Assembly: GCF_030163795.1 (NCBI RefSeq)
Contig: NZ_JASJOF010000004.1
Coordinates: forward strand, 1 to 64,000
Reading direction: 5' to 3'
DNA from: Roseicyclus marinus
GTDB lineage: Bacteria; Pseudomonadota; Alphaproteobacteria; Rhodobacterales; Rhodobacteraceae
Length of the DNA: 64,000 nucleotides
The position numbers and the translations under genes are program-made. The notes under the pieces are model-generated. The model had not been told where the DNA came from. It made no database searches and saw only the letters and a program-made list of their open reading frames with translations. Positions 25,185-29,230 of this stretch are shown here, in pieces; position 1 is the first letter of the stretch, and each line of letters opens with the position of its first letter.

Positions 25185-25374
25185 GGCGTGCCCTCCCGTG
25201 CTGGCCGTGGTCGTTGTATATGCGACGAAGTATAGGTCATTAATGTTGACCTGTCGACGCTTTTTCGGGCAGTGGGTGCCCTTGGGTCATGAAACCATTG
25301 GAACTCCGTGATAAAGGTCTTTGCAAGCGCTTTGGGGGATTGCATAGATACGCAGCGGCGATTGGAGGTTGGCG

Positions 25375-26289
25375 ATGGATTGGGACAAACTGCGGATTTT
25401 TCACGCGGTCGCCGATGCGGGCAGCCTGACCCATGCGGGCGACACGCTGCACCTGTCGCAATCCGCCGTCAGCCGCCAGATTCGCGCGCTCGAAGAAGGG
25501 TTGAACACCACCCTCTTCCACCGCCATGCGCGCGGCCTGATCCTGACCGAGCAGGGCGAACTGCTCTTTGACGCCACGCGCCACATGTCCAAACGCCTCG
25601 AGGCCGCCGCCGCGCGCATCCGCGACAGCGAAGAGGAAGTCTTCGGCGAATTGCGCGTCACCACGACGATCGGGTTCGGCTCGCTCTGGCTCGCGCCCCG
25701 CCTGCCCGCGCTTTACGAGAAATACCCCGACCTCAAGATCGACCTGATGCTCGAGGAACGCTTGCTCGATCTGCCCATGCGTGAGGCCGACGTTGCGATC
25801 CGCATGAAGGAACCCAGCCAGGCCGACCTGATCCGCCGCCGCCTGATGACGATCAACATGCGCCTTTACGCGACCCCCCGCTACCTCGAGGCCAACGGCA
25901 CCCCCCAGACACTGGAGGATTTCGCGACCCACCGCCTCATCAGCCAGAACGCCACCTCGGCCCAGGTCAGCGCCGGCGCGATCCTCGTGCGCGAGTTGAT
26001 GGCCCATACCATCGGCTCCCGCCTCACGGTGAACAACTACTTCGGCGTGCTTCAGGCCGTGATCCACGATCTGGGCATCGGCGTCTTGCCCGATTACCTG
26101 ACGCAGGATTTCCCCGACCTCGTGCGCGTCCTTCCTGATGTGCAATCCGCCGAGGTGCCCGTCTTCCTCGCCTATCCCGAGGAACTGCGCCAATCCAAAC
26201 GGGTCGAGGTGTTCCGCGATTTCGTCGCCGAGGAGGTCATCGCCTACCGCCGCCGCCAAAAGGAAAGCGATGCCGTTCCGCTGACCTGA
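25375..26289 (+). CDS. LysR family transcriptional regulator
   Basis: A 304-residue LysR protein with an N-terminal winged helix (DKLRIFHAVADAGSLTHAG, then LSQSAVSRQIRALE, about residues 3-52) and a two-lobed substrate-binding domain from about 90. The start at 25375 has GGAGG 6 bp upstream (25364-25368). It faces away from the oxidoreductase gene across a 190-bp gap, the classic arrangement for a LysR regulator and its target. The effector is likely an aromatic or amino-acid-derived acid (inference). Confidence 0.87.
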   Translation: MDWDKLRIFHAVADAGSLTHAGDTLHLSQSAVSRQIRALEEGLNTTLFHRHARGLILTEQGELLFDATRHMSKRLEAAAARIRDSEEEVFGELRVTTTIGFGSLWLAPRLPALYEKYPDLKIDLMLEERLLDLPMREADVAIRMKEPSQADLIRRRLMTINMRLYATPRYLEANGTPQTLEDFATHRLISQNATSAQVSAGAILVRELMAHTIGSRLTVNNYFGVLQAVIHDLGIGVLPDYLTQDFPDLVRVLPDVQSAEVPVFLAYPEELRQSKRVEVFRDFVAEEVIAYRRRQKESDAVPLT

Positions 26290-26378
26290 TCCCCCCGAAA
26301 GCCCGCAACCCACCTGCCCGTGTCTGTGTGTTATGCGCCACAGGCATATCTGCTTTGCGGCGCTGCGGCAGGTTTTGC

Positions 26379-26408
26379 CTTGAACGACTCTAAACTGCCG
26401 CATATTTC
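26379..26408 (+). promoter_or_regulatory. Candidate promoter of the 26.4-kb small RNA (RpoH-like)
   Basis: CTTGAA at 26379-26384 is the exact heat-shock sigma -35 core. CATATTT at 26401-26407 fits its CCATnT-type -10. Read as a housekeeping promoter it gives TTGAAC, 17 bp, TATTTC. Transcription would start at about 26412, just before the first RNA hairpin. Confidence 0.5.
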
Positions 26409-26409
26409 G

Positions 26410-26492
26410 GCATCAATGGAACACGGGTGAGAGATCACCGTTCCATTACCTCCCTGTTGGACTTCGGCCGAGATTCGTCTCGGCCTTTTTTT
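26410..26492 (+). ncRNA. Candidate small regulatory RNA with anti-Shine-Dalgarno motif
   Basis: A free-standing RNA unit between the LysR and GNAT genes. Stem 1 is TGGAAC (26417-26422) plus GGTGA (26426-26430) paired with TCACC and GTTCCA (26435-26445), closed by the GNRA tetraloop GAGA. Next is an unpaired stretch TTACCTCCCTGTTGG. Then comes an intrinsic terminator with stem GGCCGAGA/TCTCGGCC, a TTCG loop and seven T. CCTCCC is complementary to ribosome binding sites and recalls the CCUCCUCCC sRNAs (CcsR/alpha-r14 type) of alphaproteobacteria. It could instead be a leader of the GNAT gene, but the terminator lies 22 bp before that ATG, which favours an independent RNA. Confidence 0.65.
26466..26492 (+). 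terminator. Strong intrinsic terminator
   Basis: GGCCGAGA (26466-26473), TTCG loop, TCTCGGCC (26478-26485), then T7 (26486-26492). This is the best canonical terminator in the window. It ends the candidate small RNA. Confidence 0.85.
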
Positions 26493-26514: not shown

Positions 26515-26991
26515 ATGACTGTTTCCAACGTCGAAACAAATCCGGGCGATTTCAACGATTTCACGGCGCTCCACGCCTTATTGTCCACGGCTTTCGCCTA
26601 TATGGCCGACCGGATCGACCCGCCTTCCTCCATGACGCGCCTCTCGCTCGCCGATCTCCGCGCCAAATCCACGACCGAGGATCTGTTCCTGATCCGCGAA
26701 AACGGCACCCCCATCGCCTGCCTGTTCGGCGCGGCCGCGCCCGATCACTACTATATCGGCAAGCTGGCCGTCGCCGCAGCGCAGCGCGGACAGGGCCACG
26801 CCCGCGCGCTGGTCGAGGCCGCGGCCCGTCATGCCCGCGCCCTGTCGCTGCCCGCCCTCGTGCTGCAAAGCCGGGTAGAACTGGTGGAAAACCACGCAGC
26901 CTTCGCCGCCATGGGCTTCGTCGTGACCGCGAAAACCGCCCATCCCGGCTACGACCGCCCCACCTCGCTCACCTTCCGGCGCGCGCTCTGA
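26515..26991 (+). CDS. GNAT family N-acetyltransferase
   Basis: A 158-residue protein with the GNAT acetyl-CoA loop in IGKLAVAAAQRGQGHARALV (about residues 82-100, pattern Q/RxxGxG/A) and the following LVLQSRVELVENHAAFAAMGF segment typical of motif B. The ATG at 26515 is used; the frame is open back to a TTG. Substrate unknown. It lies 79 bp before purL and directly after the small-RNA terminator, so it must have its own promoter between 26492 and 26515 or be read through. Confidence 0.8.
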   Translation: MTVSNVETNPGDFNDFTALHALLSTAFAYMADRIDPPSSMTRLSLADLRAKSTTEDLFLIRENGTPIACLFGAAAPDHYYIGKLAVAAAQRGQGHARALVEAAARHARALSLPALVLQSRVELVENHAAFAAMGFVVTAKTAHPGYDRPTSLTFRRAL

Positions 26992-27070: not shown

Positions 27071-29230
27071 ATGACCGAGCCAGCCATCACGCCCGATCTG
27101 ATCGCCGCCCACGGGCTCAAACCCGATGAATACGAGCGCATCCTCGAGATCATCGGGCGCGAACCGACCTTCACGGAACTCGGCATCTTCTCGGCCATGT
27201 GGAACGAACATTGTTCCTACAAATCCTCCAAGAAATGGCTGCGCACCCTGCCGACCAAGGGCCCGCAGGTGATCTGCGGCCCGGGCGAAAACGCGGGCGT
27301 CGTCGATATCGGCGACGGTCAGGCGGTCGTCTTCAAGATGGAAAGCCACAACCACCCCTCCTACATCGAACCCTACCAGGGTGCGGCGACCGGCGTGGGC
27401 GGCATCTTGCGCGATGTCTTCACCATGGGCGCACGCCCCATCGCGGCGATGAACGCGCTGTCCTTTGGCGAAAAGGACCATCCCAAAACCCGCCAGCTCG
27501 TCCATGGCGTGGTCGAGGGCGTGGGCGGCTACGGCAATTGCTTCGGCGTTCCCAACGTGGGCGGCGAAGTGCGCTTTCACCGCGCCTATAACGGAAATTG
27601 CCTCGTGAACGCCTTCGCCGCCGGTCTCGCCGAGGCCGACAGCATCTTCTACTCGGCGGCCTCGGGCGTCGGAATGCCCGTGGTCTATCTGGGCGCGAAA
27701 ACCGGCCGCGACGGCGTTGGTGGGGCCACCATGGCCAGCGCCGAATTCGACGACACGATCGAGGAAAAGCGCCCCACCGTGCAGGTCGGCGACCCCTTCA
27801 CCGAAAAGCGCCTGTTGGAGGCCTGCCTCGAACTCATGGCCTCGGGTGCCGTCATCTCGATCCAGGACATGGGGGCCGCGGGCCTGACCTGTTCGGCCGT
27901 CGAAATGGGCGACAAGGGCAATCTCGGCATCAAGCTCACGCTCGACCATGTGCCGCAGCGCGAAACGAACATGACCGCCTACGAGATGATGCTGTCGGAA
28001 AGCCAGGAGCGGATGCTCATGGTCCTCAAGCCGTCGATGGAGGCCGAGGCCCGCGCCATTTTCCAGAAATGGGACCTCGATTTCGCCATCGTCGGCGAAA
28101 CCATCCCCGAGGATCGCTTCCTCATCCTGCACGGCAACGAGGTGATGGCCGACCTGCCGCTGTCCAAACTCTCCTCCGAGGCCCCCGAATACGACCGCCC
28201 CTGGGTGCCGACAGAACCCGCCGCCGACATGGACCCCGTCCCCGAGGTCGATGCCATCGACGCGCTCAAGGCGCTGATTTCCTCGCCCAATTACTGCTCG
28301 CGCGCCTGGGTCTACGAACAATACGACCACATGGTCATGGCCGATACGATCCGCGCGCCGGGCCTTGGCGCGGGCGTTGTGCGCGTCCATGGCACGGAAA
28401 AGGCGCTGGCCTTCACCTCCGACGTGACGCCGCGCTACGTCAAGGCGAACCCCGTCGAGGGCGGCAAACAGGCCGTGGCCGAAGCCTATCGCAACCTCAT
28501 TGCCGTCGGTGCGCGCCCGCTTGCCACCACCGACAACCTCAATTTCGGCAATCCCGAAAAGCCCGAGATCATGGGCCAGTTCGTGGGCGCCATCCAAGGT
28601 ATCGGGCAGGCCTGCGCGGCGCTCGACATGCCCATCGTCTCGGGCAATGTCAGCCTTTACAACGAAACCGACGGTCAGGCGATCCTGCCCACCCCCACGA
28701 TCGGGGCCGTCGGCCTCTTGTCCTCGCCCGAGGAGCTGATCGCGGGCGTGCCGCGCGATGGCCATGTGCTGATGGTTCTGGGCGAAACCCGGGGTCATCT
28801 GGGTCAATCCGCGCTTCTGGCCGAGGTCTTCAACCGCGAAGAGGGCGATGCGCCCCCGGTCGACCTCGCGGCCGAACGTACCGCGGGCGAATTCATCCTC
28901 GCCAACCGCCAGTGGATCACCGCCTGCACCGACCTCAGCGACGGCGGGCTGGCGCTGGCCGCCTTCGAAATGGCCGTTGCGGGCGATGTGGGCCTCACGC
29001 TCGAGCCCAGCGACAACGCCATGCTCTATGGCGAGGATCAGGGCCGCTACCTCATCGCCACGAATTTCGACAAGGCCGAGGCGCTGATGGTCGCGGCGGG
29101 TCAGGCGGGCGTGACGCTCTCCACCGTCGGCAAGGTCGGCGGCGACAAGATCCGCATCGGCGGGTCCGAGGCGTCCCTTGCCGATCTGTCGACCCTCTGG
29201 CGCACGGCCTTCGCCGCGCATTTCGCCTGA
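27071..29230 (+). CDS. purL: Phosphoribosylformylglycinamidine synthase subunit PurL (small form)
   Basis: A 719-residue FGAM synthase subunit, the size of the small PurL that works with separate PurS and PurQ. Recognisable motifs are [12 protein letters not shown] (about 43-54), [23 protein letters not shown] (95-117), GAAGLTCS and [12 protein letters not shown]. It catalyses the ATP-dependent amidation of FGAR in purine synthesis. PurS and PurQ are not in the window. It is followed by bolA and grxD. Confidence 0.95.

Follow-up and report, generated by a model that had tools for sequence, protein, structure and literature searches.

Positions 26,414–26,492 of the window, the whole 64-kb stretch of Roseicyclus marinus DNA analyzed here, are best explained as the sorY gene, and very probably encode a small RNA (sRNA) that would mask the ribosome sites of transport mRNAs under oxidative or heat stress. 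The gene lies between a LysR-type regulator gene and a GNAT acetyltransferase gene, and its features, all on the forward strand, are as follows.

25,369–26,289, + strand: LysR-type regulator, LsrB/VtlR orthologue (Pfam HTH_1 and LysR_substrate; match to PDB 9HH1)
26,344–26,356, + strand: VtlR/LsrB-type box GCAT-N3-TG-N3-T (GCATATCTGCTTT), an exact fit to the published VtlR box
26,379–26,384, + strand: −35 element CTTGAA, RpoH-like (66/75 SorY loci have such promoter spacing)
26,401–26,407, + strand: −10 element CATATTT (from a logo anchored on CTTG; family consensus CCTAAAT)
26,414–26,492, + strand: SorY-orthologous sRNA, about 79 nt (5′ end from homology, ±2)
26,415–26,447, + strand: 5′ hairpin, 8 bp + 5 bp, GAGA loop at 26,431–26,434 (from fold and covariation)
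26,448–26,464, + strand: anti-Shine-Dalgarno seed ACCUCCCUGUUGGACUU, single-stranded (from the alignment and a LysR-centered survey)
26,466–26,492, + strand: intrinsic terminator, 8-bp stem, TTCG loop, T7
26,515–26,991, + strand: GNAT acetyltransferase (Pfam PF00583), limited to this genus and its near relatives
27,071–29,230, + strand: purL, conserved downstream neighbor (Pfam AIRS/AIRS_C/FGAR-AT_linker)

Structure and covariation of the RNA

The predicted RNA agrees in length with the roughly 80 nt proposed in an earlier note on this DNA, which had also described an 11-bp stem with a GAGA tetraloop, a single-stranded CCTCCC, and an 8-bp TTCG-capped terminator stem with T7. The GAGA loop is as described, but the predicted stem comprises 13 pairs rather than 11, divided between an outer part (26,415–26,422 with 26,440–26,447; 8 bp) and an inner part (26,426–26,430 with 26,435–26,439; 5 bp), with a 3-nt bulge in the hairpin. 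CCTCCC, at 26,449–26,454, is indeed unpaired in the centroid structure, and the terminator was found as GGCCGAGA-TTCG-TCTCGGCC at 26,466–26,485, followed by T7 at 26,486–26,492. The minimum free energy of the element (−32.1) lies well below the shuffled mean (−19.8; z = −3.9), and none of 200 shuffles was equally stable.

Eleven of 12 sibling genomes carry the element at this locus. In an alignment of 15 sequences, the outer and inner parts of the 5′ hairpin both covary, with 10 of 21 pairs changing on both sides (6 of the 8 outer and 4 of the 5 inner pairs of this hairpin). Paired states fill 94% of alignment cells, compared with only 32–46% in slid registers, and 0 of 500 shuffles reached any of the five covariation measures. 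The earlier note had called for compensatory changes in both stems; these are present in the 5′ hairpin, whereas the terminator stem is almost invariant and carries no covariation information either way. Three sibling genomes (L010, L011 and L012) have a shorter 5′ hairpin, with CUUG apparently replacing the GNRA-type loop as its cap.

Identity of the gene and its paralogues

At the gathering threshold, Rfam yielded no match within the 64-kb window, but a low-threshold covariance-model scan (cmscan) of the element named SorY and SorX. The SorY match (RF02651) scored 46.5 bits (E = 1e-8) and did not reach the cut-off of 111 bits; the SorX match (RF02784) scored 42.1 bits (E = 3e-9), just below its cut-off of 46.6; and both rest on the same 3′ module. 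Rfam misses the R. marinus gene because the SorY cut-off is passed in only 1 of 199 Rhodobacteraceae genera, each represented by one genome. In that single genome (G068; 115 bits, C4:1632645–1632727), SorY is flanked by LysR and PurL genes whose products share 78% and 88% amino acid identity, respectively, with those of R. marinus. The model match begins 3 nt after the start of SorY published for Rhodobacter sphaeroides 2.4.1 (position 1,632,642), where TIER-seq assigned the RNA its own promoter (PMC6238624), and this agreement identifies the genome as that of R. sphaeroides 2.4.1 or one with identical coordinates. Matches in Luteovulum azotoformans, Cereibacter johrii and Gemmobacter aquatilis retain neighbors of the same locus within the fetched DNA, and purL adjoins SorY in R. 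sphaeroides, C. johrii and G. aquatilis.

Together, the same-locus match and the published start site make the R. marinus element a syntenic sorY orthologue. It is thus not the undescribed sRNA that it had been taken for, as its synteny, the geometry of its promoter and the 3′ module held in common all indicate. R. sphaeroides SorY (RSs1543) has the same locus order (LsrB-like LysR, SorY, purL) and promoter geometry, a 5′ hairpin, an identical UACCUCCCUGUUGGACUU and the GGCCGAG terminator that follows it in both RNAs; it differs in the sequence of the 5′ hairpin and in the GNAT gene that R. marinus has inserted before purL, and the R. marinus RNA scores far under Rfam's narrow SorY cut-off. 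The proposed kinship with stress-induced sRNAs of Rhodobacterales holds, although the relative is SorY/SorX, with CCUCCCUGUUGGAC, and not the CcsR type with its CCUCCUCCC loops, which no match supports. StsR, our first guess at an identity, was dropped when the published SorY start site was found to fit the locus. The mmgR/suhB family (RF00519) shares the CCUCCCU...GACUU segment ahead of the terminator but lies at another locus, and the R. marinus RNA reaches only 24.8 bits against its cut-off of 41.

Because the SorX score is close to its cut-off and the SorX/SorY family is multi-copy, with at least one match in 189 of 199 genera, we considered whether the element, instead of being SorY itself, might be a copy of SorX type or a novel paralogue in the family. 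SorX (RSs2461), whose target in R. sphaeroides is a transporter (polyamine transport), shares the seed ACCUCCCUGUUGGAC and the type of terminator, but it arises by processing of an mRNA, from the 3′ UTR of an OmpR-type regulator gene, whereas the R. marinus element has its own predicted promoter and the neighbors of SorY. A model built from SorY loci found three family members in the R. marinus genome, and the element scored best by far (74.8 bits versus 38.8 and 29.6). A separate SorX orthologue lies at C21:221259–221335 (L126), between an OmpR-type response regulator gene and an exonuclease III-like gene; SorX in R. sphaeroides (L038) has these two neighbors as well. We therefore regard a paralogue as very unlikely. 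The third family member, at C11:459522–459594 (L127), is located upstream of a prolyl-tRNA synthetase-like (proS-like) gene; neighbor names at the C21 and C11 loci are readings of translations, not Pfam calls.

The orthologue assignment extends well beyond this genome. ACCUCCCUGUUGGACUU is almost invariant in 75 aligned SorY loci, although these loci were selected by the motif CCTCCCTGTTGGAC, so that its conservation there is not independent proof. In a survey centered on the LysR protein, 40 of 50 genera, R. marinus included, carried the motif no more than 600 nt 3′ of the LysR gene; the sample was not random, as it joined the top 30 LysR matches to 20 others picked mostly from lower in the list. 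The RF02651 cut-off is thus too narrow, a curator's threshold and not a biological feature, as the locus retains the gene in most genera.

The element also adjoins the GNAT gene on its upstream side and ends in a terminator, as a leader or attenuator of the GNAT–purL genes might. Such a leader is scarcely credible, since the GNAT gene is missing from most other SorY loci and absent in most genera that retain the RNA, in many loci the fetched flank contained no PurL match, and no alternative antiterminator pairing was seen in the fold.

Promoter, upstream box and candidate targets

The CTTGAA and CATATTT elements are separated by 16 nt, as in R. sphaeroides SorY. This geometry bears out, at the level of sequence, the RpoH-type promoter that had been proposed, together with its CTTGAA, and replaces the 17-bp spacing given for the pair with 16 nt by homology. 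A CTTGNN element followed after 15–17 nt by a CTANNT-like −10 occurs in 66 of 75 SorY loci, compared with a mean of 0.8 and a maximum of 4 in shuffles. A sigma-70 promoter scan of the sRNA region found none, as expected for an RpoH-type promoter. The −10 sits within an imperfect palindrome (TGCCGCATATTTCGGCA, 26,397–26,412) that is partly retained in siblings and is a possible operator.

This promoter bears on whether the element is merely the terminator and 3′ UTR of the LysR mRNA, without an independent RNA. Its position directly 3′ of the LysR gene on the same strand, and the strength of its terminator, would suit a 3′ UTR. Such a reading would leave the conserved, fixed-spacing promoter in the intergenic region, the covarying hairpin and the almost invariant seed outside the terminator without explanation, and R. 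sphaeroides SorY has a promoter of its own; we consider it slightly less probable even than a SorX-type paralogue.

Upstream of the promoter, the sequence at 26,344–26,356 matches the VtlR box published as GCAT-N3-TG-N3-T (PMC7486931). A box with at most one mismatch is present in 64 of 69 SorY loci (shuffles: mean 7.3, maximum 14), mostly 35–36 nt upstream of CTTG, and in the majority it reads GCAT-N4-G-N3-T, without the T of the published box. We infer from this arrangement that the LysR protein (LsrB) would control SorY through the putative box, though the box could serve a different unit. A further conserved element resembling TGCGGCAT is located at 26,364–26,370; the logo places it 8–15 nt 5′ of the −35 across many SorY loci, and it could serve as a subsite for an activator.

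Published accounts of R. sphaeroides SorY describe an Hfq-dependent RNA under RpoHI/RpoHII control that influences takP mRNA stability and limits malate import. By analogy, SorY would be transcribed from its RpoH-type promoter under oxidative or heat stress and bound by Hfq at the U-tail, and its seed would pair with ribosome-binding sites of the GGGAGG type in transport-gene mRNAs. Pairing would block translation and lower mRNA stability, and the outcome would be less nutrient import during stress of either kind. PDB 2HZK served to identify takP in R. sphaeroides, and the ribosome site of that gene, CCACAAGGGAGGAATGCCATG, is the complement of the SorY segment CCUCCCUGUUGG at 10 of 12 bases. 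The predicted duplex of the SorY seed with takP reaches −24.4 kcal/mol; the 45 gene starts scored in the window have a median of −14.0, but the best of them reaches −24.3, so that the energy by itself is not specific. The complementarity nevertheless supports ribosome-site masking and, together with homology, fits the anti-Shine-Dalgarno role that the earlier note had assigned to CCUCCC.

The closest TakP homologue in R. marinus is only 37% identical, and takP may therefore not be a target in this species; its start site also pairs more weakly (−20.8). Scanning five sibling genomes for the seed complement (ACAGGGAGG-N4-9-ATG) gave 3–6 sites per genome and 0–2 in the reversed control, an excess that may be explained by ordinary ribosome-site bias, and few sites recurred in orthologous genes. 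Among those that did, ACAGGGAGG forms an exact 9-nt complement at the start of a Peripla_BP_4 sugar-binding protein gene (G000:C23:226255; common to three sibling species) and recurs at the start of a membrane-protein gene directly after the DctP gene of a TRAP operon (G000:C21:91140; common to two siblings). We treat both as candidate SorY targets and as leads only. For R. marinus, we infer the expression of SorY, its sigma dependence, its binding by Hfq, its targets and the binding of the LysR protein.

The LsrB orthologue and a probable relation to AbcR

The earlier note had overlooked that the upstream LysR gene encodes an LsrB/VtlR orthologue, as well as the VtlR-like box before the promoter. 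The best PDB match of the R. marinus protein is 9HH1, Agrobacterium tumefaciens LsrB (PMC11975290), at 253 bits versus 111 for the next PDB entry, and LsrB is a reciprocal best match both in R. marinus (252 bits versus 120 for the next LysR) and in R. sphaeroides (251 versus 126). Strong matches to this LsrB-like LysR occur in 119 of 120 Rhodobacteraceae genera (loci including L137–L189) and in 111 of 192 alphaproteobacterial genomes sampled (loci including L263–L289). Cysteine is entirely absent from the R. marinus orthologue. The protein thus lacks C144 and C273, the redox residues of A. tumefaciens LsrB, and could hardly sense redox by the disulfide of that protein. A cysteine count of 0 or 1 is usual among the Rhodobacteraceae orthologues.

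In A. tumefaciens and S. meliloti, AbcR sRNAs adjoin lsrB/vtlR (PMC7486931, PMC8844928). AbcR1 requires VtlR in A. tumefaciens, while in S. meliloti one study found that LsrB drives AbcR1 and RpoH1 drives AbcR2, and an earlier study saw no effect of LsrB (PMC7486931, PMC8844928). AbcR1/AbcR2 (alpha-r15; S. meliloti, A. tumefaciens and Brucella) resemble SorY in the adjoining LsrB/VtlR LysR gene (in A. tumefaciens and S. meliloti) and in a VtlR box before the sRNA promoter, which in R. marinus is exact. Anti-Shine-Dalgarno CUCCC motifs, mostly transport mRNA targets, and LsrB and RpoH1 inputs are further likenesses (PMC7486931, PMC8844928). AbcR RNAs differ in being 114–121 nt long in S. meliloti, in tandem, and with one anti-Shine-Dalgarno motif (aSD1) in the 5′ hairpin loop, whereas SorY is about 79 nt, single-copy at its locus and capped by a GAGA loop, with its seed only between hairpin and terminator.

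We ran a covariance model built from SorY loci alone (R1) on 192 alphaproteobacterial genomes. Outside Rhodobacteraceae it matched in 52 genomes, 40 of which have an LsrB orthologue, and in 17 genomes a match lies 138–493 nt downstream of that orthologue on the same strand; the chance expectation, from match number and genome sizes, is far below one. A trxB-like sequence lies upstream in 25 of 27 LsrB loci outside the family, as in the published vtlR gene order (PMC7486931), and CCTCCCTGT followed by a T-run occurs downstream in 18 of the 27. Two loci (L265 and L268) have two such RNAs each, every one preceded by a box-like GCAT site, an arrangement that recalls abcR1/abcR2. At the gathering score, Rfam found nothing in 20 LysR loci outside Rhodobacteraceae, so kinship with AbcR rests on locus, box and model matches and not on an Rfam family. 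The shared sequence there is short, and the case for common descent is accordingly drawn from place, seed, terminator and box together. On this evidence, SorY and the rhizobial AbcR RNAs are probably divergent descendants of one LsrB/VtlR-linked alphaproteobacterial locus, and LsrB would still drive SorY through GCAT-N4-G-N3-T besides RpoH. The link is absent from the literature searched; primary SorY/SorX papers lay outside that search and may mention it.

Collectively, these results widen the range of SorY beyond R. sphaeroides to the majority of the Rhodobacteraceae genera sampled, where the Rfam cut-off hides the gene. If the shared-locus reading is true, LsrB is not confined to Rhizobiales, to which a 2025 paper called it unique (PMC11975290), and two separately studied systems, SorY in photo-oxidative stress and the AbcR/LsrB circuit of host interaction, would be tied together. 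The locus comparison predicts a regulator for SorY and a job that both systems would share, that of cutting transporter synthesis under stress.
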